From IMG/VR virus record IMGVR_UViG_3300046476_000278, positions 1-31,540 of that record: a stretch of 31,540 bases of DNA; one strand, 5' to 3'. The notes below the pieces were generated by a model. That model was given only the letters and a program-made list of their open reading frames with translations, was not told the DNA's origin and made no database searches. Position numbers and translations under genes: made by a program. Positions 6,982 to 31,420 of the stretch are shown piece after piece (within the stretch, counting starts at the first letter, position 1; each line of letters starts with the position of its first letter). Source of the stretch: a virus.

Positions 6982-7743
6982 TTACCATGTCTTGTGTGCG
7001 AAGAGGATCGGCTGTCCATCGAGCGTCGCCGTCTCCTTTACGCCCCAGCCGCCGTAGGGCGGCCCGAGCTCGCCCCAGTGGCCGTGCGTCGAAAACGATT
7101 GCGGCAGCACGATGCGCTCGAACCCCTCGTTGATGCACAGATTGAGTGTCCACTGCTGCACCGCGATATGCGCGAAGGAGGGCGCGGTGTCCATCCAGCG
7201 GCGCAGATACGCCTGCCAGAGCCTGAGCCAGGTCGACCTGGTGGCCACCACGCAGCCGGCGTTGCCGATCGGGTCGGCCGCGCTGGTGTGAAACTTTTGG
7301 CCGATCTCCTCGTCACTTAATAGCGGCTGAATGCGACACAGCTCATTGATCATGTTGTCGCCGCCCACCTTTGGCTCATTTGGCCCGATGCCGATCTGGC
7401 CATCCTGCCAGCCTTGCAGCCAGGCCCACTCGTCATCCGAGAACCGCCGCTGCATCTTCACGTCGCCGTCGATGCAGATGATCACTGCGTCGTCACTGGT
7501 CTCCAGATAGGGCAGCCAGTTGCCGTGCTGGATGCAGCCGTTGCCGGGATTGCCGAGTGACCGATCGAGCATCCCCTTGGGGATCGCGTAGCAGCTGACG
7601 CCCTCGGGGCACGCAGCCGGCGCGTCGCACCCCGCCAGGCCAAGCGCCACGCCGGCCGGCGCAGCGTGTTTCGCCAGCAGCTCCAGTGTCCCGATCTCTT
7701 CGAGCCGTGCGAGGTAGCCGTACGTCGCGATCGTCGTGATCAC
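6982..7743 (-). CDS. Glycosyltransferase-like protein, 253 aa
   Basis: The start chosen is GTG 7743 (VITTIATYGYLARLEEI), overlapping the methyltransferase stop as GTGA; the longer open frame upstream is the methyltransferase's shadow. The opening beta-strand with IATYGY and the later AVIICIDGDVKMQRRF, where DGD looks like a metal-binding DxD, fit a GT-A type glycosyltransferase. Asn/Trp-rich segments (GCIQHGNWLPYL) precede the DxD. The C-terminal part carries His and Trp residues (STHGHWGELGPPYGGWGVKE) likely to be near the acceptor. No specific family can be named. It probably adds a sugar to a virion or cell-surface acceptor together with its neighbours. Confidence 0.6.
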   Translation of the reverse strand: MITTIATYGYLARLEEIGTLELLAKHAAPAGVALGLAGCDAPAACPEGVSCYAIPKGMLDRSLGNPGNGCIQHGNWLPYLETSDDAVIICIDGDVKMQRRFSDDEWAWLQGWQDGQIGIGPNEPKVGGDNMINELCRIQPLLSDEEIGQKFHTSAADPIGNAGCVVATRSTWLRLWQAYLRRWMDTAPSFAHIAVQQWTLNLCINEGFERIVLPQSFSTHGHWGELGPPYGGWGVKETATLDGQPILFAHKTW

Positions 7744-10253: not shown

Positions 10254-10349
10254 GTTCGATCTCCTTTCGAACCTCCGAAGCATTGCGCGCGACGGGTAGC
10301 GGAGTCTCTACCTGTTCGGGCCGTCGCCCTAGCCGCGCGCAGTTCCGTC

Positions 10350-16150: not shown

Positions 16151-17804
16151 GCTTCCGCGCCTCACGCCCTAACCGCCTGGCCCAGCCCAGCTCCGACTCC
16201 AGCAGCGCGGCCGCGTCGTCGTCCGCCGCGTCCTTCGTGGCTTCCCTGGCTGCCTTCATCCGCTCGGTCATATACTCCATATTCGCGGTGACCATGCGCT
16301 CAATGATCAGCCGAGACTCGGCCGCAGCGTCCCAGTCCTTCAGCGCCGGCGGCGCTTTCGCCGGCTCCTGCGTCGGCGCGCTCGCGATCAGCGCCAGCGA
16401 CGCAGGGGTCGGATTCGGCGTGGCGCCCATCTTCTCATCGTCCGATATCTGCCCGCCGGCCGTGGCGTCTTGGGCCACCAGCTCCTGCGGTAAGTCTTCC
16501 GAGTCGACCGCCAGCTGGCGCGCCATCGCGGGCGAAATCTCGCCGCTGTCGATCTGCACCTTGCGGGTGTCGGCGCGGGTCTTCTGCACCTCCGCGCGCG
16601 CCTTCTGGTCGCGCATATCGTTCTCATCGGTGAATTGCAATTCGGTCGTCGATGGCAGCACGCGGTCGCTGACGGTCTGCTCCCACCACTTGATAAACGC
16701 CGGCAGCGCGCCCTGCCCTTTACTCGCGTCATCCAAGACCAGCGTCTGCGTGCCGGTGCCCAGGCCCTGCCCTGACAAGGGCTGAATCGATTGCACGGGT
16801 ACACCGATGTTATTGGCATAGATCAGGTAGCCGTTGTCGCGCTCGTCTTTCGGGATGAAGCTGGTTAATAGCTCTTTGAGCTTGACCTCGACCATCGAGA
16901 TCGGCGTGTCGCTGGGGATCGCGCCCAGGATCGTGCCCAGGTAGTAGACCAGTCCGCGAGATTGGGCGTCGGCCTCGCCGCTGCGGAGGATCGCCTGCAA
17001 GGTCGGGTCGTTGATGCCTTGCAGGAACACCAGCTTATTCGCGCCGCCGCCGGTCAAATTCTCGTACACCAGCTGCTCCATCGCGGCCAGCTTGGCGATC
17101 GTCTTGTAGGCGCGCCCGGCCGCGCAACTCCCGACCCCGAACAGCTCCGCGCGGGGCGATGGCTGATCGGCGTACATCAACACCTGATCCCAGCGAAATA
17201 TCTGCTGCGTGCCATTGATGGGCATATAGCGCAGCGGGTAGGCCAGGTTACCGGTGCGGATGCAGCGCAGGCTGTCGAGGTGGTACAGCCCGTCGATCTT
17301 GGCGCCGCTTTGCGCGGTCGTCACGCTGGCCTCGGCGAACGATCCGGTCTCGACGCCCATCACGGTCTGCGCCTTGACCTTGACCTTGACCACTTCTTCG
17401 CCCTGCCGCCGAATGCGGATGAACACGCCGTTATCGGTGGTGAGCAGGTCGCGCATCACTTTGAGCGCGAACGGAACCCAGCCCTCGCCGCCGTTCGCCC
17501 GCTTCAGCAGTTCCTGGCTGGCTGACACGCGGCGCGAGCTGTCCTTGCTATCCTTGATCACGTAGCCGTGCGCCGCGAACTTGGTACTAGCGGTGGCGAT
17601 CGCCGCCGCCCACATGTCCTCTTTGTGCGGCGTGTTACTGAGCACCCAGTCGCGCCGGGGGCTCCAGTATTGGGGCAAGTCGGTGTAGGAGGGTTGGAAG
17701 ATCGTGGCCATCCAGGGGAACGCCAGGCCGAACGCCGCCGGCGCGCTCGACGGGTAGGCCAGCGTGTCGCCTTTGATGGCGGATGGGGCGAGGGTGTCAG
17801 TCAT
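16143..17804 (-). CDS. Portal protein, 553 aa
   Basis: ATG 17804 overlaps the terminase stop as ATGA. Size and place (right after TerL) fit a portal. Recognisable features are an N-terminal core with WSPRRDWVLSNTPHKEDMW and GFLY-free beta segments, a central clip/stem area (DGVFIRIRR-like GVFIRIRRQGEE, residues 124-135) and a C-terminal helical crown with acidic and basic patches (MEYMTERMKAAREATKDAAD). DNERDN-like segments (FIPKDERDNGYLIYANNIGV) precede a glutamine-rich tunnel-loop region (GQGLGTGTQTLVLDDASKGQ). Twelve copies would form the DNA gate. The family call rests on order and overall texture rather than one motif. Confidence 0.75.
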   Translation of the reverse strand: MTDTLAPSAIKGDTLAYPSSAPAAFGLAFPWMATIFQPSYTDLPQYWSPRRDWVLSNTPHKEDMWAAAIATASTKFAAHGYVIKDSKDSSRRVSASQELLKRANGGEGWVPFALKVMRDLLTTDNGVFIRIRRQGEEVVKVKVKAQTVMGVETGSFAEASVTTAQSGAKIDGLYHLDSLRCIRTGNLAYPLRYMPINGTQQIFRWDQVLMYADQPSPRAELFGVGSCAAGRAYKTIAKLAAMEQLVYENLTGGGANKLVFLQGINDPTLQAILRSGEADAQSRGLVYYLGTILGAIPSDTPISMVEVKLKELLTSFIPKDERDNGYLIYANNIGVPVQSIQPLSGQGLGTGTQTLVLDDASKGQGALPAFIKWWEQTVSDRVLPSTTELQFTDENDMRDQKARAEVQKTRADTRKVQIDSGEISPAMARQLAVDSEDLPQELVAQDATAGGQISDDEKMGATPNPTPASLALIASAPTQEPAKAPPALKDWDAAAESRLIIERMVTANMEYMTERMKAAREATKDAADDDAAALLESELGWARRLGREARKHA

Positions 17805-19114
17805 TGCTCAAACCTTTGCGACCAAACACCATAACGTAAAGCGTCTATGCTGTGGTCGAATGCTTTGATGATCTTGCCGTTCGCGTCTTTGCGGTAGCTC
17901 AGCATCTCGGCGCGCAGATTGGTGCAGCGCGGATGCACCTTGACCCGGCGCCGGCCATTGCTATCGAGCGCGAGCGCCCGCCGCAGCTCTTTGATGCTTT
18001 CCTCAACATCGCTCGGACTGTTGCGCGTGTACACGCCGCCAGCGTGTAAGCGGCCCTTCAGCTCGGCCGCGCTCTTATCGACGACGGCATAGTCAGGATG
18101 CGGGTAGGGCAGCGCCAGAATGTCAGCCACATGGACATCCGAGAGCAGTCCCGCTTCGTCACTCTCGGCAAACACGTTGATCGTGCCGTCGTGCCGGATC
18201 TGCGCCAGCAGAAACACGCGCGGGTGACTGTCGGCCGTCCATTGTCCCGTCTGCGTGTCGCGCACGCCTACGTAGCCGTCGTCGACAAACCAGAGGACTT
18301 CGCCCGCGCCCGCCTCAAACTCGGCCGCCTCACTCACGTTGCCGTCGTTCGGCCCGTCGCTCCAGACCCCGAAGATCACGCCGGTCGCCTGCACCCACAG
18401 CCCGAGGCCCAGCCGCTGGTACTCCGTTCCCACACGCTCGCCGGTCTTGGCGTCGATGTGGCCTAGGCGTTCCAGCTTCGCTTTATAGGCGCGCCCCTCG
18501 GCCGTCCACTGGCCGCCCTGATACAGGCGCGGGTTGTCTTCGTGCCGGCTATGCAGCATCGTCACCGTGCTGGCCTGCGCCCGAATCCAGAGCCAGTGCG
18601 TCGGGGCGTCCGGGTTGCAGTCGGCCAGGAGCTGCTGGTAGGGCATCACGCCGTTGCGCAGCCGGGTGGTCAGCGCCAGCCAGGCGGCCAGCTCCAGCTC
18701 GGTCGCCTCCTGGACGTAGATCATATCATACTCGGTTGACATGATCTTGCCGGGCTTATCCAGGCCGCCGACCACGATCGCGCTGCGGTTCGGATAGTGG
18801 TAGGCCTGCCGGAAGTTGCGGCGCGGGCCGTCTTTGAGCGGATCGCCTGCCGGCAGCACCTTGTCCTCGAAGGTGACCAGCGCGGCCTCGGACAGGCTTT
18901 CCCTGGTCTTCCGAATAATCAGCCCGCGCATCCCAGCGTATTTCAACGCGCAGAAGTGCAGCTTCTCCAGGCATGCTCTCGACTTGCCCGTGCCGGCCGG
19001 GCCGCTGATCACGATCTCGGTCGCGTGTGAGCGCCACAAATCGGCAGCGGCGCCGTGGGCGCTGTAGCCGCGCGGCCGCGGTAGCGTGTTATGCGTCGTC
19101 GGGGTCGAAAGCAT
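17801..19114 (-). CDS. terL: Large terminase subunit (TerL), 437 aa
   Basis: ATG 19114 (MLSTPTTHNTLPRPRGYS) is preferred; the frame is open to 19330, but that stretch is Arg/Ser-rich shadow of TerS. Walker A is GPAGTGKS (residues 38-45), and Walker B with its catalytic Glu is MIYVQEA (131-137, E136). The nuclease domain shows acidic residues in FVDDGYVG, the AVVDKSAAEL strand and the closing FDHSIDALRYG motif. The motor pumps DNA into the prohead through the portal and cuts concatemers. It overlaps TerS by 26 bases. Features are complete and it is probably functional. Confidence 0.9.
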   Translation of the reverse strand: MLSTPTTHNTLPRPRGYSAHGAAADLWRSHATEIVISGPAGTGKSRACLEKLHFCALKYAGMRGLIIRKTRESLSEAALVTFEDKVLPAGDPLKDGPRRNFRQAYHYPNRSAIVVGGLDKPGKIMSTEYDMIYVQEATELELAAWLALTTRLRNGVMPYQQLLADCNPDAPTHWLWIRAQASTVTMLHSRHEDNPRLYQGGQWTAEGRAYKAKLERLGHIDAKTGERVGTEYQRLGLGLWVQATGVIFGVWSDGPNDGNVSEAAEFEAGAGEVLWFVDDGYVGVRDTQTGQWTADSHPRVFLLAQIRHDGTINVFAESDEAGLLSDVHVADILALPYPHPDYAVVDKSAAELKGRLHAGGVYTRNSPSDVEESIKELRRALALDSNGRRRVKVHPRCTNLRAEMLSYRKDANGKIIKAFDHSIDALRYGVWSQRFEQ

Positions 19115-19580
19115 CGGTTTTCTCGTAGACCTTGAACAGCGGTTGCCCGTCGGCGCCAGTGTGCTCGACCTTATCGGTGAACAGCTTGTGATGCTTGCCC
19201 AGCAGCGCGAGCGCGGCCTGGGCGTCGTGCACTTCGAAGCTGATCCCCTTGTCCGTGATGGATACTTTCTTGACCAGGTGCAGCGGGCGATCCGGCCCGA
19301 GATCAAAGCCGGTTGGCACGCCCGCGTCATTGGTCACGAGAAATGGCGCGACGCTACTCCGCGCGTGGTCAGTGATGCGCGCTAAGACTTCATCGGCGCC
19401 CATCTTCAGCTCGACGAGGCGCGCCTGGATGGCCTGGCTGATACCGTTATTTACCATCAGGCGATGCGCATTGCGGTTCGGGTCGGCATAGCCCGCGCGC
19501 CGCGCCGCCTCGGTCTCATTCCAGCAGGTGAGAAAATGCTCAACAAAGGCCTGCTGCTTGGGGGTCAGTGGCTTGTCCAT
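19089..19580 (-). CDS. terS: Small terminase subunit (TerS, terminase_2 type), 163 aa
   Basis: ATG 19580 (MDKPLTPKQQAFVEHFLTCW) is the family-like start; the open frame further up overlaps the 54-residue membrane gene. The N-terminal motif (LTPKQQAFVEHFL, NETEAARRAGYAD, then a NAHRLMVNNGISQAI helix) is the classic terminase_2 DNA-binding HTH. Later residues (MGADEVLARITDHARSS) form the oligomerisation helix, and the C-terminus is beta-rich and acidic (YEKTDAFDPDDA), likely contacting TerL. It recognises the packaging site and loads TerL; the next gene is TerL. Confidence 0.85.
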   Translation of the reverse strand: MDKPLTPKQQAFVEHFLTCWNETEAARRAGYADPNRNAHRLMVNNGISQAIQARLVELKMGADEVLARITDHARSSVAPFLVTNDAGVPTGFDLGPDRPLHLVKKVSITDKGISFEVHDAQAALALLGKHHKLFTDKVEHTGADGQPLFKVYEKTDAFDPDDA

Positions 19581-22385: not shown

Positions 22386-25226
22386 CTAGTCGACTTCGAC
22401 CAATACCTCCAGTGCCTGCGCCTCCACCCCACCCTGCCCGGCCGCGCGCTCCAGGTTGAGCGCCAGCAGCCGCGCCAGGATATCCTCGTCGGCGATGTCG
22501 TGCGGCCAGCCATAGGCGTCGAGCACGGCCGCGTCGAGCTGGCGGTGCGCCGCGTCGAGCCAGTCCGGGCGCGCGTTGTACAGATTAGTCAGCGTGCGCT
22601 TCTCCAGCGGCAGATCGGGGTACGCAGCGCCCCCTAGCCAGGCATCACGCACGCTCACCAGGTCGCGCGCGGCGGCCGCGATGGCCTGGACGCGCGGGTC
22701 ATCTTGGCATTCGCTGCCAGGCGACCAAGGGAAGGGGAAGGTCTCGAAGGTGGTAGTAGGTGTGTAGCGAGGAGTAGGACCAAGTGATGTGCCAAGGCGC
22801 AAAGACCACAATTCGTGAGCGAGTGAGTGGAGTACTCCCAAAAAGTAGTCATCTTCGCGAGCAATAACAATAAGTTGTTGATCAGGAATAGTTGGATGTG
22901 CTAGCCATACAAAAGGCCGGTGTTTTGCAACAGCTGGCGTTACAATAAATCTTTGAAGTGGGCCAATTGCTCGCCGCATACCAGAGCGCGTTTCTTCAAA
23001 CAGCCACCATTTTCTACGTGTTCTCTCACGGCGTACTTTTTCTCGCTCCGGCTTTACGTGGTGATTGACATACTCAAACGGCCGATTATATTCTGCCGCT
23101 TCGTCGCAGGACATATCTACCCCAAAATCGATGATCCACATACCTCGATTTTTCTCTACAATGTCTGAACCATTTACCCAAGGTTTGACTACATCAATAT
23201 TGGAGCGATGATTAAGGTTGTCACTCGCTGCTATCAATGTGTTTGCTAGAGATTTGTCAATATCAAATGGACCGTATTTCTTAGTTCCAGCAAACGCTAT
23301 ATTACTATTCGCATGTAATCGCATTGCCTTCGTGAAATCCAATGCATCTGTGAGATCAGCATTAATCTCTTGCACTGCTTTACCATCCAAGTACCGTATC
23401 TGTTCGCTACCATTATCGAAACCGATCATTGATATGCGTACAGCAGCACCGTCCAATGTCCAAGGGCGATCACTCCAAGCCATGAAAATGTCGCCGGTCT
23501 GTTTTATTCGATCTAGGACACGCCGACTTGTGCCATTTCGAATTGAGTTAGTTGCTAATAGCCCTGCGCGGTTGATCTTACCCGCTTCTAGCATAGCTCG
23601 TGTTCGCTCAAACCAGTAGCAGACAAGGTCAGGGATGCCAGGAAAGCGACCGACGTACAACTCGCGCAGTGTTTCAACGTAAGCATCACCTAGTTCTGCT
23701 CGCATCTTACGATCACCCAAAAACGGCGGATTGCCGACAATCACATCCACATCCGGCCATACCGGCTCTGCTGGCCGCCCCTGCGCGTCAATCTCCAGAA
23801 TCGCATCACGGCACTGAATGGTATCGAGCGTCTGAAGAATCGGCTCCTGGGGCGGCGGCAAACCGTTCGCCTGAAGCCACTGGAGATACCCAATCCACAC
23901 CACCACCTGCGCCAGTTCAGCGGCAAAGGGATCCTTCTCGATGCCATAGAGCTGCGCCGGCGATACGCCGAGCTCGGGCGGCGTGAGTCCCACGCCATTG
24001 GCGTAGACCAGCACCTCCTTCTCCAGATCCTTGAGCGATTTCAGCGCGACGTAGAGGAAATTGCCCGACCCAGCGGCCGGGTCGAGCACCTTGACCTGGG
24101 ATAGCCGATCGGCGAAGTCGAACAGCGGGGCTTCCATACGGTTCTGGAGACGGAGCTTGGTTGTCCCGCTCGCCGTTTCCCACTCTGGGCGCACACGCTC
24201 CGCCTCACTCCGCACATCGATCCACTCGCGACGAAGCGGATCCATCAGCACGGGCTCGACGATCAGCTGAATATCGGAGGTGCTGGTGTAGTGCAAGCCG
24301 AGCTGTCCCCGCTTGCCCGGATCGATGGATCGCTCAAACAGCGTGCCGAAGATCGCCGGCTCGACCTCGCGCCAATCGAGCCGCGCAGCGGCGGCCAGGT
24401 ATTGGATCTCGTCAGCGGTGAGCGGCAGCACATCGTCGTTCGCAAACAGGCCGCCGTTGAAACGTGGCACGCGCGCCAGCCCGAAGTACCCGCCAGCATT
24501 CATGGTCTGAAACAGCGCCCGCATCCGGTCGGGGAACTCCAGCGGCGCAAAGATCGACGCCTCCAGATGCTGGGTCATGAGGTTCCCTGGCAGCAGGCGC
24601 ATGTCCTCAGCGAAGAAGGCGAAGACCAGCTTCATAAAGAACGGCGCGATCCGGCTAGGGGCAAAGCCGCGCCGCTCCAGCAGCTGGGCCACGGTGGCAA
24701 AGCGCGCAGCAGCCTCTTCGGTGACGCTCTCGGCGCGCTCAGCAGGGCGCAGCTGCTCCGGGTCGGTGAGAATGAGGTGCAGCAGCTCGCGCGTGCTAAC
24801 GGTGCGAATATCGGCGTTCGTGAAGCGCTCGACCCGCGTCTTGTAGCCCGTGAACGCCACATGGATCTCGAAGTTTTCGACATCGGTCGCGGCAAGGATC
24901 GGGGGGTTGTCCAGATCCTCTTTGTAGAGCAGCAGCTGCTCATACGCCTGGCGGAGATCGATGTAGCGGCCGCGCGTCTTGTACTCGAAGGCGAAGCGAT
25001 CCTTCCGCCACACGTCGGCGAAGCCAGCCTTGCCGCCAACCTTGGTCAGCGGCTTCTCGAAGCGATAGTACGTCCCATCGGGATCGGACTCGATCGGGCC
25101 TTTCTGGCCGAGCAGGTGACAGAGATCATTAAAGTGGGATTGCGCGACGGCGCGCTCATTCAGCGTAACCCGCTCCCATTTTTCAACAAACGCCTGGGCA
25201 GCGGCGGCAGTGGTGGATGGTGGCAC
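22386..25226 (-). CDS. MmeI-like Type IIL/IIG bifunctional restriction endonuclease and N6-adenine methyltransferase, 946 aa
   Basis: GTG 25226 has GAGG five bases upstream. With this start the nuclease residues GFADVWRKDRFAFEYK fall at D71, E81 and K83, close to MmeI's D70-E80-K82, which supports it (an ATG 23 codons earlier exists). Next are the helical spacer (VEPAIFGTLFERSIDPGKRG), SAM motif I LDPAAGSGNF (381-390), the catalytic NPPF (499-502), a target-recognition region (about 520-800) and a C-terminal helical end. One chain would both methylate and cut at a distance from its site. All key residues are present. The part from just after NPPF to about residue 815 (22780-23730) is visibly AT-rich against the GC-rich rest, pointing to an exchanged recognition domain. 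It probably protects the lysogen from other phages. Confidence 0.9.
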   Translation of the reverse strand: MPPSTTAAAAQAFVEKWERVTLNERAVAQSHFNDLCHLLGQKGPIESDPDGTYYRFEKPLTKVGGKAGFADVWRKDRFAFEYKTRGRYIDLRQAYEQLLLYKEDLDNPPILAATDVENFEIHVAFTGYKTRVERFTNADIRTVSTRELLHLILTDPEQLRPAERAESVTEEAAARFATVAQLLERRGFAPSRIAPFFMKLVFAFFAEDMRLLPGNLMTQHLEASIFAPLEFPDRMRALFQTMNAGGYFGLARVPRFNGGLFANDDVLPLTADEIQYLAAAARLDWREVEPAIFGTLFERSIDPGKRGQLGLHYTSTSDIQLIVEPVLMDPLRREWIDVRSEAERVRPEWETASGTTKLRLQNRMEAPLFDFADRLSQVKVLDPAAGSGNFLYVALKSLKDLEKEVLVYANGVGLTPPELGVSPAQLYGIEKDPFAAELAQVVVWIGYLQWLQANGLPPPQEPILQTLDTIQCRDAILEIDAQGRPAEPVWPDVDVIVGNPPFLGDRKMRAELGDAYVETLRELYVGRFPGIPDLVCYWFERTRAMLEAGKINRAGLLATNSIRNGTSRRVLDRIKQTGDIFMAWSDRPWTLDGAAVRISMIGFDNGSEQIRYLDGKAVQEINADLTDALDFTKAMRLHANSNIAFAGTKKYGPFDIDKSLANTLIAASDNLNHRSNIDVVKPWVNGSDIVEKNRGMWIIDFGVDMSCDEAAEYNRPFEYVNHHVKPEREKVRRERTRRKWWLFEETRSGMRRAIGPLQRFIVTPAVAKHRPFVWLAHPTIPDQQLIVIAREDDYFLGVLHSLAHELWSLRLGTSLGPTPRYTPTTTFETFPFPWSPGSECQDDPRVQAIAAAARDLVSVRDAWLGGAAYPDLPLEKRTLTNLYNARPDWLDAAHRQLDAAVLDAYGWPHDIADEDILARLLALNLERAAGQGGVEAQALEVLVEVD

Positions 25227-25508
25227 AGCGACCTCGGGATGTAGTGCGATGATGATAGTCAGATAGTCAATGCATACACCGACCATCATACCCATGCGTT
25301 ACGCGGGACGTATGCGCGATTCGGTAGCGAAACGAGAGCAACACCGTCATGGGTGATCGGGCCGAGGCGCTGGCGGTGCTCGTCGGCGCGCCGCGGTGAC
25401 GGGGTGGGCGGCCTGGACGCACGAACGCCGGTTCTCAATTCAAGAGAACCGGCGTTCGTGCGATGAGCGAACGTGCGTGCGGTAGGGGCAGTATAGCATA
25501 GGCGGGCG
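25227..25508. other. Non-coding stretch upstream of the MmeI-like gene
   Basis: It holds the long hairpin at 25418-25462 and the upstream region of the MmeI-like gene. TTGACT occurs at about 25261-25266 on the minus strand, but no good -10 stands 17 bases on, so the promoter is not settled. No gene is seen. Confidence 0.4.
25418..25462. terminator. Perfect 19-bp hairpin (right cargo boundary)
   Basis: Arms 25418-25436 and 25444-25462 pair perfectly around AATTCAA. The top half (CCGGTTCTC with GAGAACCGG) repeats the core of the hairpin at 21456-21484. There is no U tract on either side. It lies about 45 bases after the Rad52-like stop and is likely the end of the early operon, bidirectional in form. 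Confidence 0.6.
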
Positions 25509-27233: not shown

Positions 27234-27794
27234 TCAGTCCTCAATGTGCTTCCATGAGATGCGGCGCACGATGTTCTTGACTTGCACATTGCTGATGGGA
27301 TAGCGGCGAGCAATAGCAACGAACGACTCGCCGGCGGCAGCCAGGACGCGGATCGCCCGCACATCATCGGGTGTCAGCTTGGCGGTGTTGACCCGCTCAC
27401 CATTCGCGCGCCCGGTTGCGTTAAAGCGACCTTTCGCCATACAGTCGTGAATATTGTCAGCGTGCGTGCCCCAGAACAGATGCTCAGGAAAAAGGCATGC
27501 CGGCGTGTCGCAACGATGGAGCACCAGCAGCGGGCTAGCGAGATCGAATCCGAGATACAGATGCGCCGCCAGTCGGTGAACATAGCGATTGCGACGCGAC
27601 ACGCAGATCACGCCGTAGCCCTTGCCGCCCGTTCCGCCTGTCCAGAGCCAGCAGCCGCGATCGGGGTCAATGGTGCAATGCGACTCCAGCCAGGCGATCA
27701 GCCGATCGCGTTCGTGGAGTTGAAGGTTGGGCTTCTGCGCGACGGCGGCAGCCGATCCGCGCATGCTCTCTTCGTGTGTGAATTGGCGTGGCAT
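27234..27794 (-). CDS. HNH endonuclease (HNH_3-like) with C-terminal HTH, 186 aa
   Basis: ATG 27794 shares its A with the previous TAA and has GAGG seven bases upstream. Residues 40-115 form the HNH domain: GCWLWTGGTGGKGYGVI, then RYVHRLAAHLYLG, VLHRCDTPACLFPEHLFWGT, and HADNIHDCMAKGRF. The Cys pair (DTPAC) and the His/Asn residues match the HNH_3 pattern of phage homing enzymes. Residues about 135-180 (LTPDDVRAIRVLAAAGESFV, AIARRYPISNVQVKNIVRRI) are a resolvase-type HTH seen in such proteins. Metal ligands are intact. It may be a free-standing homing endonuclease or a packaging-linked HNH. Confidence 0.8.
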   Translation of the reverse strand: MPRQFTHEESMRGSAAAVAQKPNLQLHERDRLIAWLESHCTIDPDRGCWLWTGGTGGKGYGVICVSRRNRYVHRLAAHLYLGFDLASPLLVLHRCDTPACLFPEHLFWGTHADNIHDCMAKGRFNATGRANGERVNTAKLTPDDVRAIRVLAAAGESFVAIARRYPISNVQVKNIVRRISWKHIED

Positions 27795-28480
27795 TATGCG
27801 GCCTCGCTGTAGCAGCGCTGGCGCGCCGCGCAGAGCCGCTGGCCCAGCTCGGCCGGCGTCGGCTCAACATCCCCATCGTCGAAGCGCTCCATGTCCTCGA
27901 ACGCCTGTTCGAGCCCAATCACCAGCGCGATCGGCCAGTGCATATTCGCGCCGGCGCAGCAGCTGCACACCCAATCGCCATCCATCGTGAGCAGGTGAGC
28001 CGGCTGGCCTGGTCGGCTACTCGGCACGAGCCGCGCGCCGCTCGGCAGTACATCGGGCCGGACGCCGGCACGGTACTGGGCGAGCGCGTTGGTGAACGCC
28101 GTGGCGGCCGCGCGCTCCGCCTTGCGGTGGGCCAGATCTCCCGTGGCGTCGGCCAGCCGGGCGGCGTCGCTGTGTTCGATCGCCAGCCGCTCCAAGGCGC
28201 CCTCGATCGCCGCGTCGAGTGGCCCGGCGGCCCACTTCTCATCGTAGCGGGCGATCCAGCCCTCGACATCACTGGGCATCCAGTCGCCCGTGATCGCGGC
28301 GAGCTGCCGCGCCACCAGGCGGTACTTGCTTGAATAGTCCAGGCCGCGCCAGCGCGCCGCCCGCGCCTCGCCTTTGAGCGACAGGAAGACGGTGAGGAAT
28401 TGCGCGTCGGCTTCGGCCAGGCGCTGGTCGGCGTCGGCGGTGTGGAGGGCGGTGGCGACGATGGTGTCGATGGTCTTCAT
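27794..28480 (-). CDS. SWIM-like zinc protein, first gene of leftward early operon, 228 aa
   Basis: ATG 28480 (MKTIDTIVATALHTADADQR) has AGGA seven bases upstream and lies about 45 bases after the leftward promoter; a start at 28522 falls in the promoter itself. It is helical and acidic up to about 140. Near 165-195 it has GDWVCSCCAGANMHWPIALV, a CxCC...H arrangement resembling SWIM zinc modules that bind DNA or proteins. The C-terminus is acidic (FEDMERFDDGDVEPT). Being first suggests an early regulatory or host-takeover role. Family assignment uncertain. Confidence 0.6.
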   Translation of the reverse strand: MKTIDTIVATALHTADADQRLAEADAQFLTVFLSLKGEARAARWRGLDYSSKYRLVARQLAAITGDWMPSDVEGWIARYDEKWAAGPLDAAIEGALERLAIEHSDAARLADATGDLAHRKAERAAATAFTNALAQYRAGVRPDVLPSGARLVPSSRPGQPAHLLTMDGDWVCSCCAGANMHWPIALVIGLEQAFEDMERFDDGDVEPTPAELGQRLCAARQRCYSEAA

Positions 28481-28520
28481 TGCGGTGTCCTGTGCAAATA
28501 TGCGCTTCCGAATTAACACC

Positions 28521-28549
28521 ATTATACAGGATTATACGGTGGTTGTCAA
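28521..28549 (-). promoter_or_regulatory. Leftward early promoter
   Basis: On the minus strand TTGACA (28544-28549) and TATAAT (28521-28526) are 17 bases apart, both perfect consensus. The -35 lies within the left arm of the 18-bp inverted repeat. It drives the 28480 gene and the early operon. Confidence 0.85.
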
Positions 28550-28605
28550 GCATATATCGCCAGATAACGATATATGCTTGACAACGATCCTATACAGGAC
28601 TATAC
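28523..28605. repeat. Paired TATACAGGAYTATAC repeats over both -10 regions
   Basis: TATACAGGATTATAC (28523-28537) and TATACAGGACTATAC (28591-28605) overlap the -10 and spacer of the leftward and rightward promoters. They differ at one base and run in the same direction. They are probably a second operator set apart from the central inverted repeat. Confidence 0.6.
28542..28585. promoter_or_regulatory. Divergent operator: 18-bp inverted repeat
   Basis: Arms 28542-28559 and 28568-28585 (GTTGTCAAGCATATATCG and its complement) pair perfectly around CCAGATAA. Each arm includes the -35 box of one of the two divergent promoters. A regulator bound here would block both, giving an obvious lysis-lysogeny or excision switch. 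The rightward HTH protein is the nearest candidate. Confidence 0.75.
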
Positions 28606-28606
28606 T
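28578..28606 (+). promoter_or_regulatory. Rightward promoter
   Basis: TTGACA (28578-28583) and TATACT (28601-28606) are 17 bases apart; the -35 is in the right arm of the inverted repeat. Transcription would begin near 28613 and reach the HTH gene at 28637. Confidence 0.85.
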
Positions 28607-28636: not shown

Positions 28637-28885
28637 ATGGAAAAACTCTACACGGTTCAGGAAGCTGCCGAGTATCTCAAGGTCAAGAACCCGACCATGT
28701 ACAAGTACATGGATCGTGGGGTGCGCGGGGTGAAGCTCGCGTACGTCAATGTCGGTGGAACGCGCCGGATTGCGCAGAGCGCGATCGACACATTTATTCG
28801 TGAAAGCACGGCGGCAGGGGAGCTTGCCGACGATGCCAGAATACCCGCGCTCGACTTTGCGGCCCACACATCAGCACCGCAATAA
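28637..28885 (+). CDS. Excisionase-type helix-turn-helix protein, 82 aa
   Basis: ATG 28637 (MEKLYTVQEAAEYLKVKNPT) has AAGGGGG five bases upstream; a longer start at 28574 lies inside the promoter. YTVQEAAEYLKVKNPTMYKY is the HTH_17/excisionase opening, and GVKLAYVNVGGTRRIAQSAI, then DTFIRES, finishes the winged-helix fold. Family members control phage excision or act as small repressors. Its C-terminus ends AAHTSAPQ within a structured element shared with the methyltransferase gene. It is the closest gene to the divergent operator, hence the likely regulator; no CI-type repressor is seen elsewhere in the window. Confidence 0.75.
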   Translation: MEKLYTVQEAAEYLKVKNPTMYKYMDRGVRGVKLAYVNVGGTRRIAQSAIDTFIRESTAAGELADDARIPALDFAAHTSAPQ

Positions 28886-28944
28886 TCGAGCTGCCGTATT
28901 GTGTTCGGTTCACTGCCTACCGACCAAAGATAATCGGTGAACCG
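28849..28944 (+). ncRNA. Structured RNA element, copy 1
   Basis: Stem 1 has an outer six-pair helix (28849-28854 with 28886-28891) and an inner helix (28857-28862 with 28877-28882), around the loop CCCACACATCAGCA. A linker with TATTGTGTT follows, then stem 2 (28906-28913 with 28937-28944, eight pairs) around TGCCTACCGACCAAAGATAA. The HTH gene's stop lies inside stem 1. ACAC in loop 1 can pair with GTGT in the linker (possible pseudoknot). Copy 2 lies 1.25 kb downstream with compensating changes. Not recognised as a known class; could be a regulatory, antitermination or recombination element. Confidence 0.7.
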
Positions 28945-28966
28945 CCCAATTGCAAAGGAGTTTTTG

Positions 28967-29107
28967 ATGCGCGCTGCAATCAGTTTCCTGCCGCCACCTG
29001 ATCCCGATGACCCCGATCCGAACGATGAGCTTGACCCGCCGATGGAACCCGCCCAGGTGAAAGACCAATTCCCTGACGACTATCGAGACCCAGGTGAAGA
29101 CGAATGA
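28967..29107 (+). CDS. Tiny, highly acidic protein, 46 aa
   Basis: ATG 28967 has a perfect AAGGAG six bases upstream. The sequence opens MRAAISFLPPPDPDDPDPND and ends DQFPDDYRDPGEDE; it is very rich in Asp, Glu and Pro. Its stop overlaps the methyltransferase ATG (ATGA). Small acidic phage proteins of this kind can mimic DNA (Ocr- or Arn-like) or inhibit nucleases. This one is too short and Pro-rich for a known fold. It may modulate the fused methyltransferase or a host DNA-binding enzyme; that is inference. Confidence 0.6.
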   Translation: MRAAISFLPPPDPDDPDPNDELDPPMEPAQVKDQFPDDYRDPGEDE

Positions 29108-30141
29108 TCGCAGAACGATTCGATGTGGTCGCATTGATGAGCGCTGATGCTGCGCAGTCCGCAGTAGCGGCGATCAATCGCCACTTGCAGCACGCACGCG
29201 CGCTCCTGGTCGATCTGTATGAGCAGCGCGGCTGGGTGGCGCTGGGGTATACGAGCTGGCGCGACTGCGTGCTGTCTGAGTTCGATGTGAGCGAGCGTGC
29301 GTTGTATCGCGCGCTGAGCGCCGGCCAGATCGAGCGCGCGATCCGAGGGGTTTTGCCAGATTCGGCAAAGATCGTACCCGAATCGCAGTTGCTTGCGCTC
29401 GCTGACTTGTCCCCAGCGGCGCAGCCGATCGCCTGGGAGATGGCCCAGCGGGCCGCGCGCGATCAGGGGGAGCGCTTGACCACGCGCCATATTGCGGCGG
29501 CCGCGCGCGATTACACGCCCGATGCCAGCCTTCCTGAACAGAAAACAGAGGCTATGACCGACCGACCAACGCGCTTTACAAGTGGCATGCGTTCGAGCGA
29601 TTCGAACGAATGGTTCACGCCTGAGCGAATCTTGGCGCCCGTGCGCGCGGTGCTGGGGGGGATCGATCTCGATCCATGCAGTAACGACATCGCGCAGCGC
29701 GACGTGCAGGCGCGGCGCTACTACACCGAGGCCGCTGATGGACTTGCCCAATCGTGGCAAAGTGACAATGTGTTTATGAATCCGCCCTATGGCCGCTCGA
29801 TCGGACAGTGGACAGATCGCCTCATCCGCGCCTACACGTCAGGCGAAACACGCGCGGCGCTGGCGCTGCTGCCAGGGCGCACGGATACCGACTGGTTTAC
29901 GCCGCTGTTTTGTTACCCGATCTGCTTTGTCCATGGGCGGTTGACCTTCAGCGGCTACACGGCGGGGGCGCCGTTCCCAAGCGTGGTAGTGTACTTCGGG
30001 GCCGATCTGGCGCGATTTACACATGCGTTCGCGCCGCTGGGGCCGATCATGCTGCCGTTTGGTGGGGACACGTATTCAGCGTATAATCCGCGCGACATAC
30101 GAACGCCCGGCCATGCTGCCCACACTTCAGTAACAGCATGA
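29104..30141 (+). CDS. ParB-like domain fused to phage N6-adenine DNA methyltransferase, 345 aa
   Basis: ATG 29104 overlaps the acidic gene's stop. Residues 1-140 look like a DUF3102/ParB-like helical domain: NRHLQHARALLVDLYEQRGW, SWRDCVLSEFDVSERALYRA, then HTH-like TTRHIAAAARDY. Residues 155-330 are a Dam-type phage methyltransferase (DNA_N6-adenine-mtase family): NEWFTPERIL, GIDLDPCSNDIAQRDVQARR, then FMNPPYG with the catalytic motif IV and PSVVVYFG. The SAM pocket residues are intact. The fusion would load the enzyme onto DNA. It probably protects phage DNA, possibly at GATC. It ends in AAHTSVTA inside RNA element copy 2. Confidence 0.85.
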   Translation: MIAERFDVVALMSADAAQSAVAAINRHLQHARALLVDLYEQRGWVALGYTSWRDCVLSEFDVSERALYRALSAGQIERAIRGVLPDSAKIVPESQLLALADLSPAAQPIAWEMAQRAARDQGERLTTRHIAAAARDYTPDASLPEQKTEAMTDRPTRFTSGMRSSDSNEWFTPERILAPVRAVLGGIDLDPCSNDIAQRDVQARRYYTEAADGLAQSWQSDNVFMNPPYGRSIGQWTDRLIRAYTSGETRAALALLPGRTDTDWFTPLFCYPICFVHGRLTFSGYTAGAPFPSVVVYFGADLARFTHAFAPLGPIMLPFGGDTYSAYNPRDIRTPGHAAHTSVTA

Positions 30142-30199
30142 TCGGGCGTTCGTATTGTGTTCGGCGCACTGCCTACCGACCAAGATAATCAGTGTGCCG
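30099..30199 (+). ncRNA. Structured RNA element, copy 2
   Basis: Stem 1 has an 11-pair outer helix (30099-30109 with 30143-30153) and a seven-pair inner helix (30112-30118 with 30134-30140) around CCCACACTTCAGTAA. The linker ATTGTGTT follows, then stem 2 (30162-30169 with 30192-30199, eight pairs with one G-U) around TGCCTACCGACCAAGATAAT. Compared with copy 1 the helix sequences differ but pairing is kept, while both loops and the linker are conserved. The methyltransferase stop sits in stem 1. Confidence 0.7.
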
Positions 30200-30490
30200 C
30201 CCTAGGCCATCGCCATCCTCGCATCGCTACGAAGGGACCAGGCCATCTATGATGTTTCCGTTGTGACACTGAACGTCACAACTCCGTTATTCCGAACTAT
30301 TCCGACGAACGGCGCTGAAGCCAGCGACCGAGCGCGCACGTTTAAAAGTGAATAGATTGTAACCGACCATTTGTGCTACACACGTTAACAGCGTGTAAGA
30401 CTTTGGCGCTTACGAGTCAGAACGGACATTCTGACTCGTAAGCTGCCTGACTGTGAACAGGTTGGTTGAAAGCGAGAGACGGGATTCCCA
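30200..30490. other. Non-coding region 3' of the integrase; possible attP
   Basis: No gene is seen. It contains two inverted repeats, GTTGTGAC/GTCACAAC around ACTGAAC and a 15-bp one at 30408-30443, plus a weak ACACG/CGTGT pair near 30380. Phage attachment sites usually adjoin the integrase and carry such repeats, so attP may lie here. The core cannot be defined without a bacterial junction. Confidence 0.35.
30408..30443. repeat. Perfect 15-bp inverted repeat
   Basis: GCTTACGAGTCAGAA and TTCTGACTCGTAAGC flank CGGACA between the convergent methyltransferase and integrase genes. No U tract follows, so it is an unlikely intrinsic terminator; integrase arm or core sites, or a bidirectional terminator, are possible. 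Confidence 0.55.
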
Positions 30491-31420
30491 CTAGTCGCCA
30501 AACCGGCTCGGCAGCCGGTTAATCGCGGCGCGCTGGCGCGCTGGGATGAGCGCGGTGTACCCTTCCGTGGTGCGAATATCCGCATGGCCCAGCGTGGCCT
30601 GCACCTCGCGGATGTCGGCGCCGCTGATCAGCAACTCGGTCGCGCAGCTGTGGCGCAATTTATGTGCCGAGATGCGTAGCCCCAGATCATTCAGCCAGCG
30701 CTCAAAAATCAGGCCGATCGATTTGTGACTGAGGCAGCGGCCGTCCGGGTGGCCGGCCACCGCGCCGCGCCGCTGCGCCTCCGGCGTGGTCGCCAGTTCA
30801 TCCACTACGCGCGGATGCAGCGGTACGATTCGCTCATAGCCGCCCTTGGCGGTTTCGCTGCGCACGATGAGCCGCGCATCGGCCAGATACACATCGTCCC
30901 AGACCAGGCCGGCGATCTCCGCCCGTCGCAACCCCGTGTAGAGCAGCACGATGACAATCCGCCGATTGCGCAGCCAGATTCTTCTGGCGCGCACATCCAG
31001 TACGGGCGGCGACATACTCAAGATCGTCTCAAGCTGGCGCAGCTGCTCTTGTTTGAGCGGGCGTGGCAGCCGCTTGCGGCGTTTGGGAAACTCCATATCC
31101 AGCGTCGGATCATCGGCGCGCAGATGGGTGCGGATGCAGAAGCGGCAGTAACTTCTGAGCGCCGATAAGTCCTTGCTGATCGTCGCCGCTGCGAGTTTCC
31201 GCCTACTCAGCTGGTAGCGCCCGATCGAGTCGGCGCTGATGTCGGCTACCTGCGCCTCCTCCCCTAACCACGCGGCGAACCGTCGCACCGCGCGCGCATA
31301 GGTGTCCACCGTCCGATCGCGGGTCTTCTTCGCCGCCAGGTACGCCGCGAAACTCGGCAGCGTGCCGGCGATCGCTGGCGACGCGGCCAGCCGAACCTCT
31401 GTTCTGGTCTCAACAGTCAC
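30491..31420 (-). CDS. int: Tyrosine recombinase (phage integrase), 309 aa
   Basis: GTG 31420 has GGAGG seven bases upstream. Residues about 22-110 form the SAM-like core-binding domain (PSFAAYLAAKKTRDRTVDTY, SADSIGRYQLSRRKLAAATI). The catalytic domain has all six positions: R165 in TGLRRAEI, K192 in the AKGG beta-hairpin, H253 and R256 in HKLRH, H279 in TLGHAD and Y288 in TEGYTAL. It is short, without a clear N-terminal arm-binding domain, like XerC/D-type phage integrases. It would integrate or excise the phage through attP, probably next to its 3' end; the HTH_17 protein could be the excisionase. Confidence 0.9.
   Translation of the reverse strand: MTVETRTEVRLAASPAIAGTLPSFAAYLAAKKTRDRTVDTYARAVRRFAAWLGEEAQVADISADSIGRYQLSRRKLAAATISKDLSALRSYCRFCIRTHLRADDPTLDMEFPKRRKRLPRPLKQEQLRQLETILSMSPPVLDVRARRIWLRNRRIVIVLLYTGLRRAEIAGLVWDDVYLADARLIVRSETAKGGYERIVPLHPRVVDELATTPEAQRRGAVAGHPDGRCLSHKSIGLIFERWLNDLGLRISAHKLRHSCATELLISGADIREVQATLGHADIRTTEGYTALIPARQRAAINRLPSRFGD

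Follow-up and report, generated by a model that had tools for sequence, protein, structure and literature searches.

The put RNAs of phage HK022 are about 70 nt long and form two stem-loops; they are found downstream of early promoters, ahead of the terminators that they suppress, and bind the zinc-binding domain of the RNA polymerase beta' subunit (PMC9378689). Here we describe an element that is like put in forming two adjacent hairpins in an early transcript and in occurring twice in one phage, but that differs from it in length (about 105 nt, with a range of 95–107 nt) and in position, with copy 2 and the copies of relatives at gene or operon ends rather than after promoters. Like bidirectional intrinsic terminators at phage operon ends, the element has a GC-rich hairpin with a stop codon between converging genes and, in the related phages G041 and G004, T-tracts after the stem, with an A-rich 5' side that is the T-tail of the other strand; unlike them, it adds a second hairpin with a lineage-conserved loop, has weak T-tails in the phage studied here and is shared in frame by unrelated genes. 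Integron attC sites are also folded sites on either side of a gene cassette, but the present element comes without an integron integrase or R boxes, bounds one cassette, and has conserved loops rather than conserved stems. Lambdoid morons are extra genes that lie between conserved genes and carry their own terminator, and the HK022 record labels several genes as morons. The cassette described below resembles, by analogy, a moron insertion, being placed between conserved flanks with a terminator-like hairpin and absent from relatives; unlike a moron, it has no promoter of its own that we could see, and its hairpin module is common to the recipient site. A narrow literature search found no published work on such elements in Chloroflexota phages.

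The window, the whole stretch of DNA analysed, corresponds to an IMG/VR virus record 31,540 bases in length, from a phage of a soil bacterium. Most closely related to it are further virus records from metagenomes and, on the cellular side, the genome of Kouleothrix aurantiaca. The late genes, from tail to terminase (TerL at 17801–19330), are on the minus strand. Near-perfect divergent promoter sites precede a leftward gene (27794–28522) and a rightward operon, the latter with a promoter-like site, TTGACA-17-TATACT, at 28578–28606 on the plus strand. This operon encodes, in order, an HTH_17/excisionase-like regulator of 82 aa (28637–28885, tail DDARIPALDFAAHTSAPQ), a small acidic protein of 46 aa with 15 Asp/Glu (28967–29107) and a Dam-type DNA methyltransferase of 345 aa (29104–30141, tail RDIRTPGHAAHTSVTA), all on the plus strand. 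At the right end of the window a phage tyrosine integrase (30491–31420, minus strand), its stop facing left, converges on the second copy of the element.

Several neighbouring features were recorded. An 18-bp perfect inverted repeat, GTTGTCAAGCATATATCG (28542–28585), lies across the -35 boxes of both divergent promoters and is probably an operator. The leftward gene has a WVCSC..H pattern and is kept in G002, G004 and G041 (62–92% identity). The acidic protein, for which Pfam gave no match, lies directly ahead of the methyltransferase and might be a DNA-mimic anti-restriction protein. Just beyond the integrase stop is a perfect inverted repeat with core TTACGAGTCAGAA / TTCTGACTCGTAA (30408–30443), kept in G041 (L065 6197–6242) and possibly related to the attachment site. 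Elsewhere, a 969-aa MmeI-like protein (22386–25295, minus strand) combines a methyltransferase domain with helicase-spacer and target-recognition domains and has the look of a restriction-modification enzyme of type IIL. The Rfam int-alpA RNA (RF02996) lies among late genes, away from the integrase, both in the window (10272–10339, minus strand) and in the related phage G002 (L057 15415–15479, minus strand).

Two copies of a two-hairpin element

Copy 1 (28841–28944) and copy 2 (30097–30199) each consist of two adjacent hairpins on the plus strand, separated by the linker TGTGTT. In copy 1, the HTH gene has its stop codon (28883–28885) within hairpin 1 (28841–28899). The linker (28900–28905) comes next, then hairpin 2 with loop CCTACCGACCAAAGATAAT (28906–28944), and after it AAAGGAG, the ribosome-binding site for the acidic gene. 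In copy 2, hairpin 1 (30097–30155) has 22-nt arms and contains the methyltransferase stop codon, the linker occupies 30156–30161, and hairpin 2 (30162–30199) has loop CCTACCGACCAAGATAAT. The sequence-only reading that drew attention to the element had placed its start at 28849 rather than at 28841, and had rightly noted that each copy overlaps the 3' end of a gene and that the pair flanks the acidic-protein and methyltransferase genes.

The two copies lie 1,256 bp apart and are 76% identical over 87 nt without gaps; an alignment extended to 107 nt requires a single small shift, in loop 1. The loop-2 sequence TGCCTACCGACCAA is found at two places in the window and no more, against 0.15 occurrences expected at two mismatches. 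Both copies fold as two hairpins better than shuffled sequences do, with whole-element z values of -3.4 (copy 1) and -7.3 (copy 2) on the plus strand and of -4.7 and -7.8, respectively, on the minus strand. Among 26 pairs counted between the copies, five are changed on both sides, two on one side and none is broken. The changes reported earlier for stem 2, from T-A to C-G and from T-A to G-U, are present as claimed. The helices of stem 1 had been called entirely different, a description that does not hold: 12 of the 16 pairs counted there are identical, three are changed on both sides and one on one side.

Loops and linker are more conserved than the rest of the copies (3 of 39 positions differ, versus 21 of 65 elsewhere; Fisher p=0.004). 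In both upstream genes loop 1 (CCCACACxTCAG) is translated as AAHTS, and constraint on the protein could by itself be enough to preserve it. A pseudoknot between ACAC and GTGT, also proposed from the sequence, is possible in the two window copies and is not a feature of the family, since the linker is merely 1–2 nt in relatives. The covariation between the two copies was equalled in 20 of 500 shuffles; the pair by itself is thus only suggestive, and homologues matter.

Homologues and compensating changes

We built a covariance model from the two window copies alone (R1). In the related phage G005, a search with this model located the element precisely where the orthologous HTH gene ends (E=2.6e-4). 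The model also matched a contig of Kouleothrix aurantiaca, a member of the Chloroflexota, with the match at the 3' end of a gene for an XRE repressor (25 bits); the E-value of 0.028 applies to that genome and is marginal by itself, given the hundreds of genomes searched. Membership of the Kouleothrix element is supported by its in-frame tail (NIRAPGHA versus DIRTPGHA), by a hairpin-2 loop, CGTCGCCAAACT, and a pairing, CTCTG/CAGAG, that it has in common with phage G041, and by a divergent neighbour gene that weakly resembles the divergent gene of the window (profile match to 27794–28522 of 63.5% probability). Outside Kouleothrix and G041, the CGTCGCCAAACT pattern had no match with the same context.

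The elements of G041, G004 and Kouleothrix were identified by position and shape. In G041, a terminator hairpin of classical form, with ATTTTTATT, closes the orthologous HTH gene and precedes a hairpin 2 with the CGTCGCCAAACT loop, and in G004 an Arc-like gene has the same two-hairpin arrangement at its end. Hairpin 2 of both phages has an A opposite UG between two 5-bp helices, the helix sequences being different. A held-out model lacking G041 and G004 recovered neither, and their membership therefore rests on position, on the likeness of hairpin 2 (G041) and on shape (G004). The loops vary between lineages, those of G005 and G004 being unlike those of the window. A further tandem hairpin pair, CACACGAAGGCCCTGATC.. 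then ACAGCCAGGGCAACG.., lies between two genes of G041 (L065 10199–10329); its first hairpin is followed by TTCGTTGC, and its match to R1 is weak.

Wider searches added no members. Exact loop-2 patterns had no match in viral_contigs and genome_contigs, and a relaxed loop-2 pattern gave 24 matches, none in a hairpin context. BLAST against phages and plasmids returned chance matches only, as did a comparison of copy-2 DNA with 26 genomes of the Kouleothrix family (short matches, the Kouleothrix contig excepted). Covariance models run on 400 Chloroflexota and 158 Chloroflexia genomes found only Kouleothrix, and a model of the family of six (R2) found no additional elements in 42 phage records. 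Rfam searches gave no match in the region at E 5 save unrelated microRNA noise, and no match to the element in the relatives.

We aligned the six members (copies 1 and 2, G005, G041, G004 and Kouleothrix) by hand with N padding, because MAFFT alone misaligned hairpin 2. Pairing holds in 93% of the cells of this alignment, and both partners are changed in 23 of its 33 pairs, against a mean of 12.2 in shuffles; neither value was reached in any of 500 shuffles. Once the partners are slid by 1–3 columns, the number of such doubly changed pairs is at most eight. As the structure guided the drawing of the alignment, these counts lean towards structure. They bear out the earlier view of a covarying structured element as opposed to a simple repeat. 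Judged from these comparisons of sequence, the two-hairpin element is real and conserved, with compensating changes and a narrow distribution.

Gene ends and the site of the cassette

Hairpin 1 of each of the six copies encloses the stop codon of the upstream gene, which falls at position 28 or 43 of the element and always in one frame. Four unrelated families are represented among these genes (HTH_17, Arc/RHH, XRE and Dam methyltransferase), and the proteins share a tail that is roughly [D/N]-I-[R/K/E]-x-P..., with an -AA end in four cases. The -AA tail recalls degradation tags, a likeness that we merely remark on, since the GC-rich loop would encode Ala anyway. In the relatives the element is present in single copy, usually between converging genes; a converging gene lies beyond it in G005, G041 and G004.

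Comparison with these single-copy sites shows where the window differs. The promoters and the HTH gene, which precede copy 1, are orthologous to what precedes the one element of G005 and of G041, and the sequence to the right of copy 2 (AGGCCATC..GGCCATCTATGA) is orthologous to what follows that element. This right flank, AGGCCATCGCCATCCTCGC..GGCCATCTATGA (30204–30252), directly follows the lone element in G005 and G041, where a lipoprotein-like gene converges on the element and has this flank as its 3' UTR; in relatives the conserved block, AGGCCATCrCCATCCTCGC..GGCCATCTATGA, has the coordinates L061 18442–18490 and L065 near 7112–7160. The lipoprotein-like gene itself left no trace that we could find in the window, though its 3' UTR block is kept. 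Because the outer flanks of the pair of copies match those of the single copies, we conclude that a unit of 1,256 bp, comprising the acidic protein, the methyltransferase and one element, was inserted. Copy 2 and the G005 element have identical outer stems (CGACATACGAACGCCC/GGGCGTTCGTATTG), and together with the orthology of the flanks this makes copy 2 the original module and the unit of 1,256 bp the insert. Methyltransferase homologues elsewhere have no element at their ends, indicating that the element does not travel with the methyltransferase gene. A search for the right-flank motif GCCATCRCCATCCTCG in 158 Chloroflexia genomes gave 17 matches, all coding coincidences with no hairpin.

Possible roles of the element

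Hairpin 1 is GC-rich and stable in all six copies (-20 to -37 kcal/mol); on the plus strand copy 1 is weaker than copy 2 (-19.9 versus -35.0 kcal/mol). T-tracts directly follow the stem in G041 (score 4.4) and G004 (3.6), and the tails of the two window copies (2.6), of G005 (2.3) and of Kouleothrix (1.2) are poor. In G041 A/T tracts border hairpin 1 on its left and on its right (ATAAAAAT..ATTTTTATT), and hairpin 1 of G004 ends in GGGGTTTTC. A strict terminator scan of the window region found none, and with this and the poor T-tails it is orthology that points to termination at the window copies. Two further features sit less well with a terminator: hairpin 2 is positioned past the expected plus-strand stop point, and the loops of copies 1 and 2 are near-identical, more so than termination alone would require. 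Each of the six elements has its better fold on the minus strand, so that either strand may be the working one; the count of G-U versus A-C favours neither strand, and the converging (minus-strand) transcript may be the one that matters. GATAAT in loop 2 was considered as a simple promoter and rejected, there being no -35 at 16–18 nt.

On balance, we think that the element is probably a portable gene-end (terminator) module of a small Chloroflexota-type phage group, duplicated with the insertion of the methyltransferase cassette. Structure, homologues, shared position and frame, and the empty-site comparison come from the sequence itself, and termination, leakiness and the role of hairpin 2 are what we infer beyond them. 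The module would supply the last residues of the upstream protein, a stop codon in hairpin 1, and then hairpin 2. Hairpin 1 would most likely be an intrinsic terminator, probably bidirectional, between converging transcription units, and hairpin 2 a second structured barrier or 3'-end protector. The relatives have one module after the regulator gene, beside divergent promoters, and in the window, where the acidic-protein/methyltransferase cassette was inserted, there is a module on either side of it. Transcription has to cross copy 1 before the acidic protein and the methyltransferase can be made, since no promoter match was found between the regulator and the acidic gene; the simplest reading of copy 1, with its weaker hairpin 1, is a leaky terminator (attenuator) that would allow a fraction of transcripts to extend into the methyltransferase gene. 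The operon would then terminate at the stronger copy 2, facing the integrase that converges on it.

The element had been proposed to be a functional RNA or single-stranded DNA fold, perhaps a put-like antiterminator, a recombination site or an sRNA; the conserved structure stands, the proposed functions found no support, and relatives have a single-copy gene-end module. We regard it as unlikely that the element is a sequence-specific regulatory RNA, on either strand, whose loops bind a phage protein or RNA polymerase as a regulated terminator or put-like processive antiterminator. The conservation of loops and linker beyond the stems in copies 1 and 2 is in its favour, as are the put-like two-hairpin plan and the distance of copy 1 from the early promoter (roughly 230 nt, and about 270 nt for putR; PMC9378689). 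However, the loops differ between lineages, Rfam has no match, and the six-member model R2 had no match in HK022 (NC_002166) even at E 10. Copy 2 has no downstream same-strand gene to antiterminate, and the single copies of relatives lie at operon ends, where the element ends a regulator gene, in two cases with terminator-type T-tails, the opposite of an antiterminator after a promoter. Rather less likely, in our judgement, is a role in recombination, with the element either an integron-like site or a boundary prone to the exchange of modules, at which the cassette entered. One element in relatives versus two flanking the cassette in the window would fit such a site, as would the in-frame joining of four unrelated upstream genes to the module, but the pattern would follow just as well from ordinary recombination, homologous or illegitimate, at a boundary held in common. 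There is a single cassette and no array anywhere, and no integron integrase was found near the element, the only recombinase nearby being an ordinary one that matches phage integrase families. Read by eye, the GTT sites of the two copies (GTTCGGT, GTTCACT and GTTCGTA) differ from attC R boxes (RYYYAAC / GTTRRRY). What survives of the recombination-site proposal is its weak form, in which the element bounds a cassette insertion; neither an array nor site-specific machinery was seen. A transposon end was also considered and was not supported.

The better minus-strand fold of all six copies would also suit a small RNA derived from the 3' UTR of the converging minus-strand gene, or a stability element of that gene, as would the 3' UTR motif GATGGCC..GATGGCC, kept in the window although the lipoprotein gene was not detected there. 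We hold this to be very unlikely: copy 1 has neither a converging gene nor a GATGGCC flank, and G-rich minus-strand loops fold better through G-U pairs anyway. There is, in addition, a slim chance that the element represents a new structured-RNA or folded ssDNA family of Chloroflexota phages that combines transcription control at gene ends with a boundary for in-frame swaps of regulator and accessory genes, a portable "gene cap" read by a phage factor.

As a gene-end module, the element offers a concrete, testable case of a phage adding a gene cassette to a conserved early operon, the join falling at a reusable 3'-end module in which tail, stop codon and hairpins come in one piece. If the reading as a terminator is true, the two copies would be a natural set of strong and leaky terminators in Chloroflexota phages; if a loop-specific role is true, they would belong to a new RNA family.
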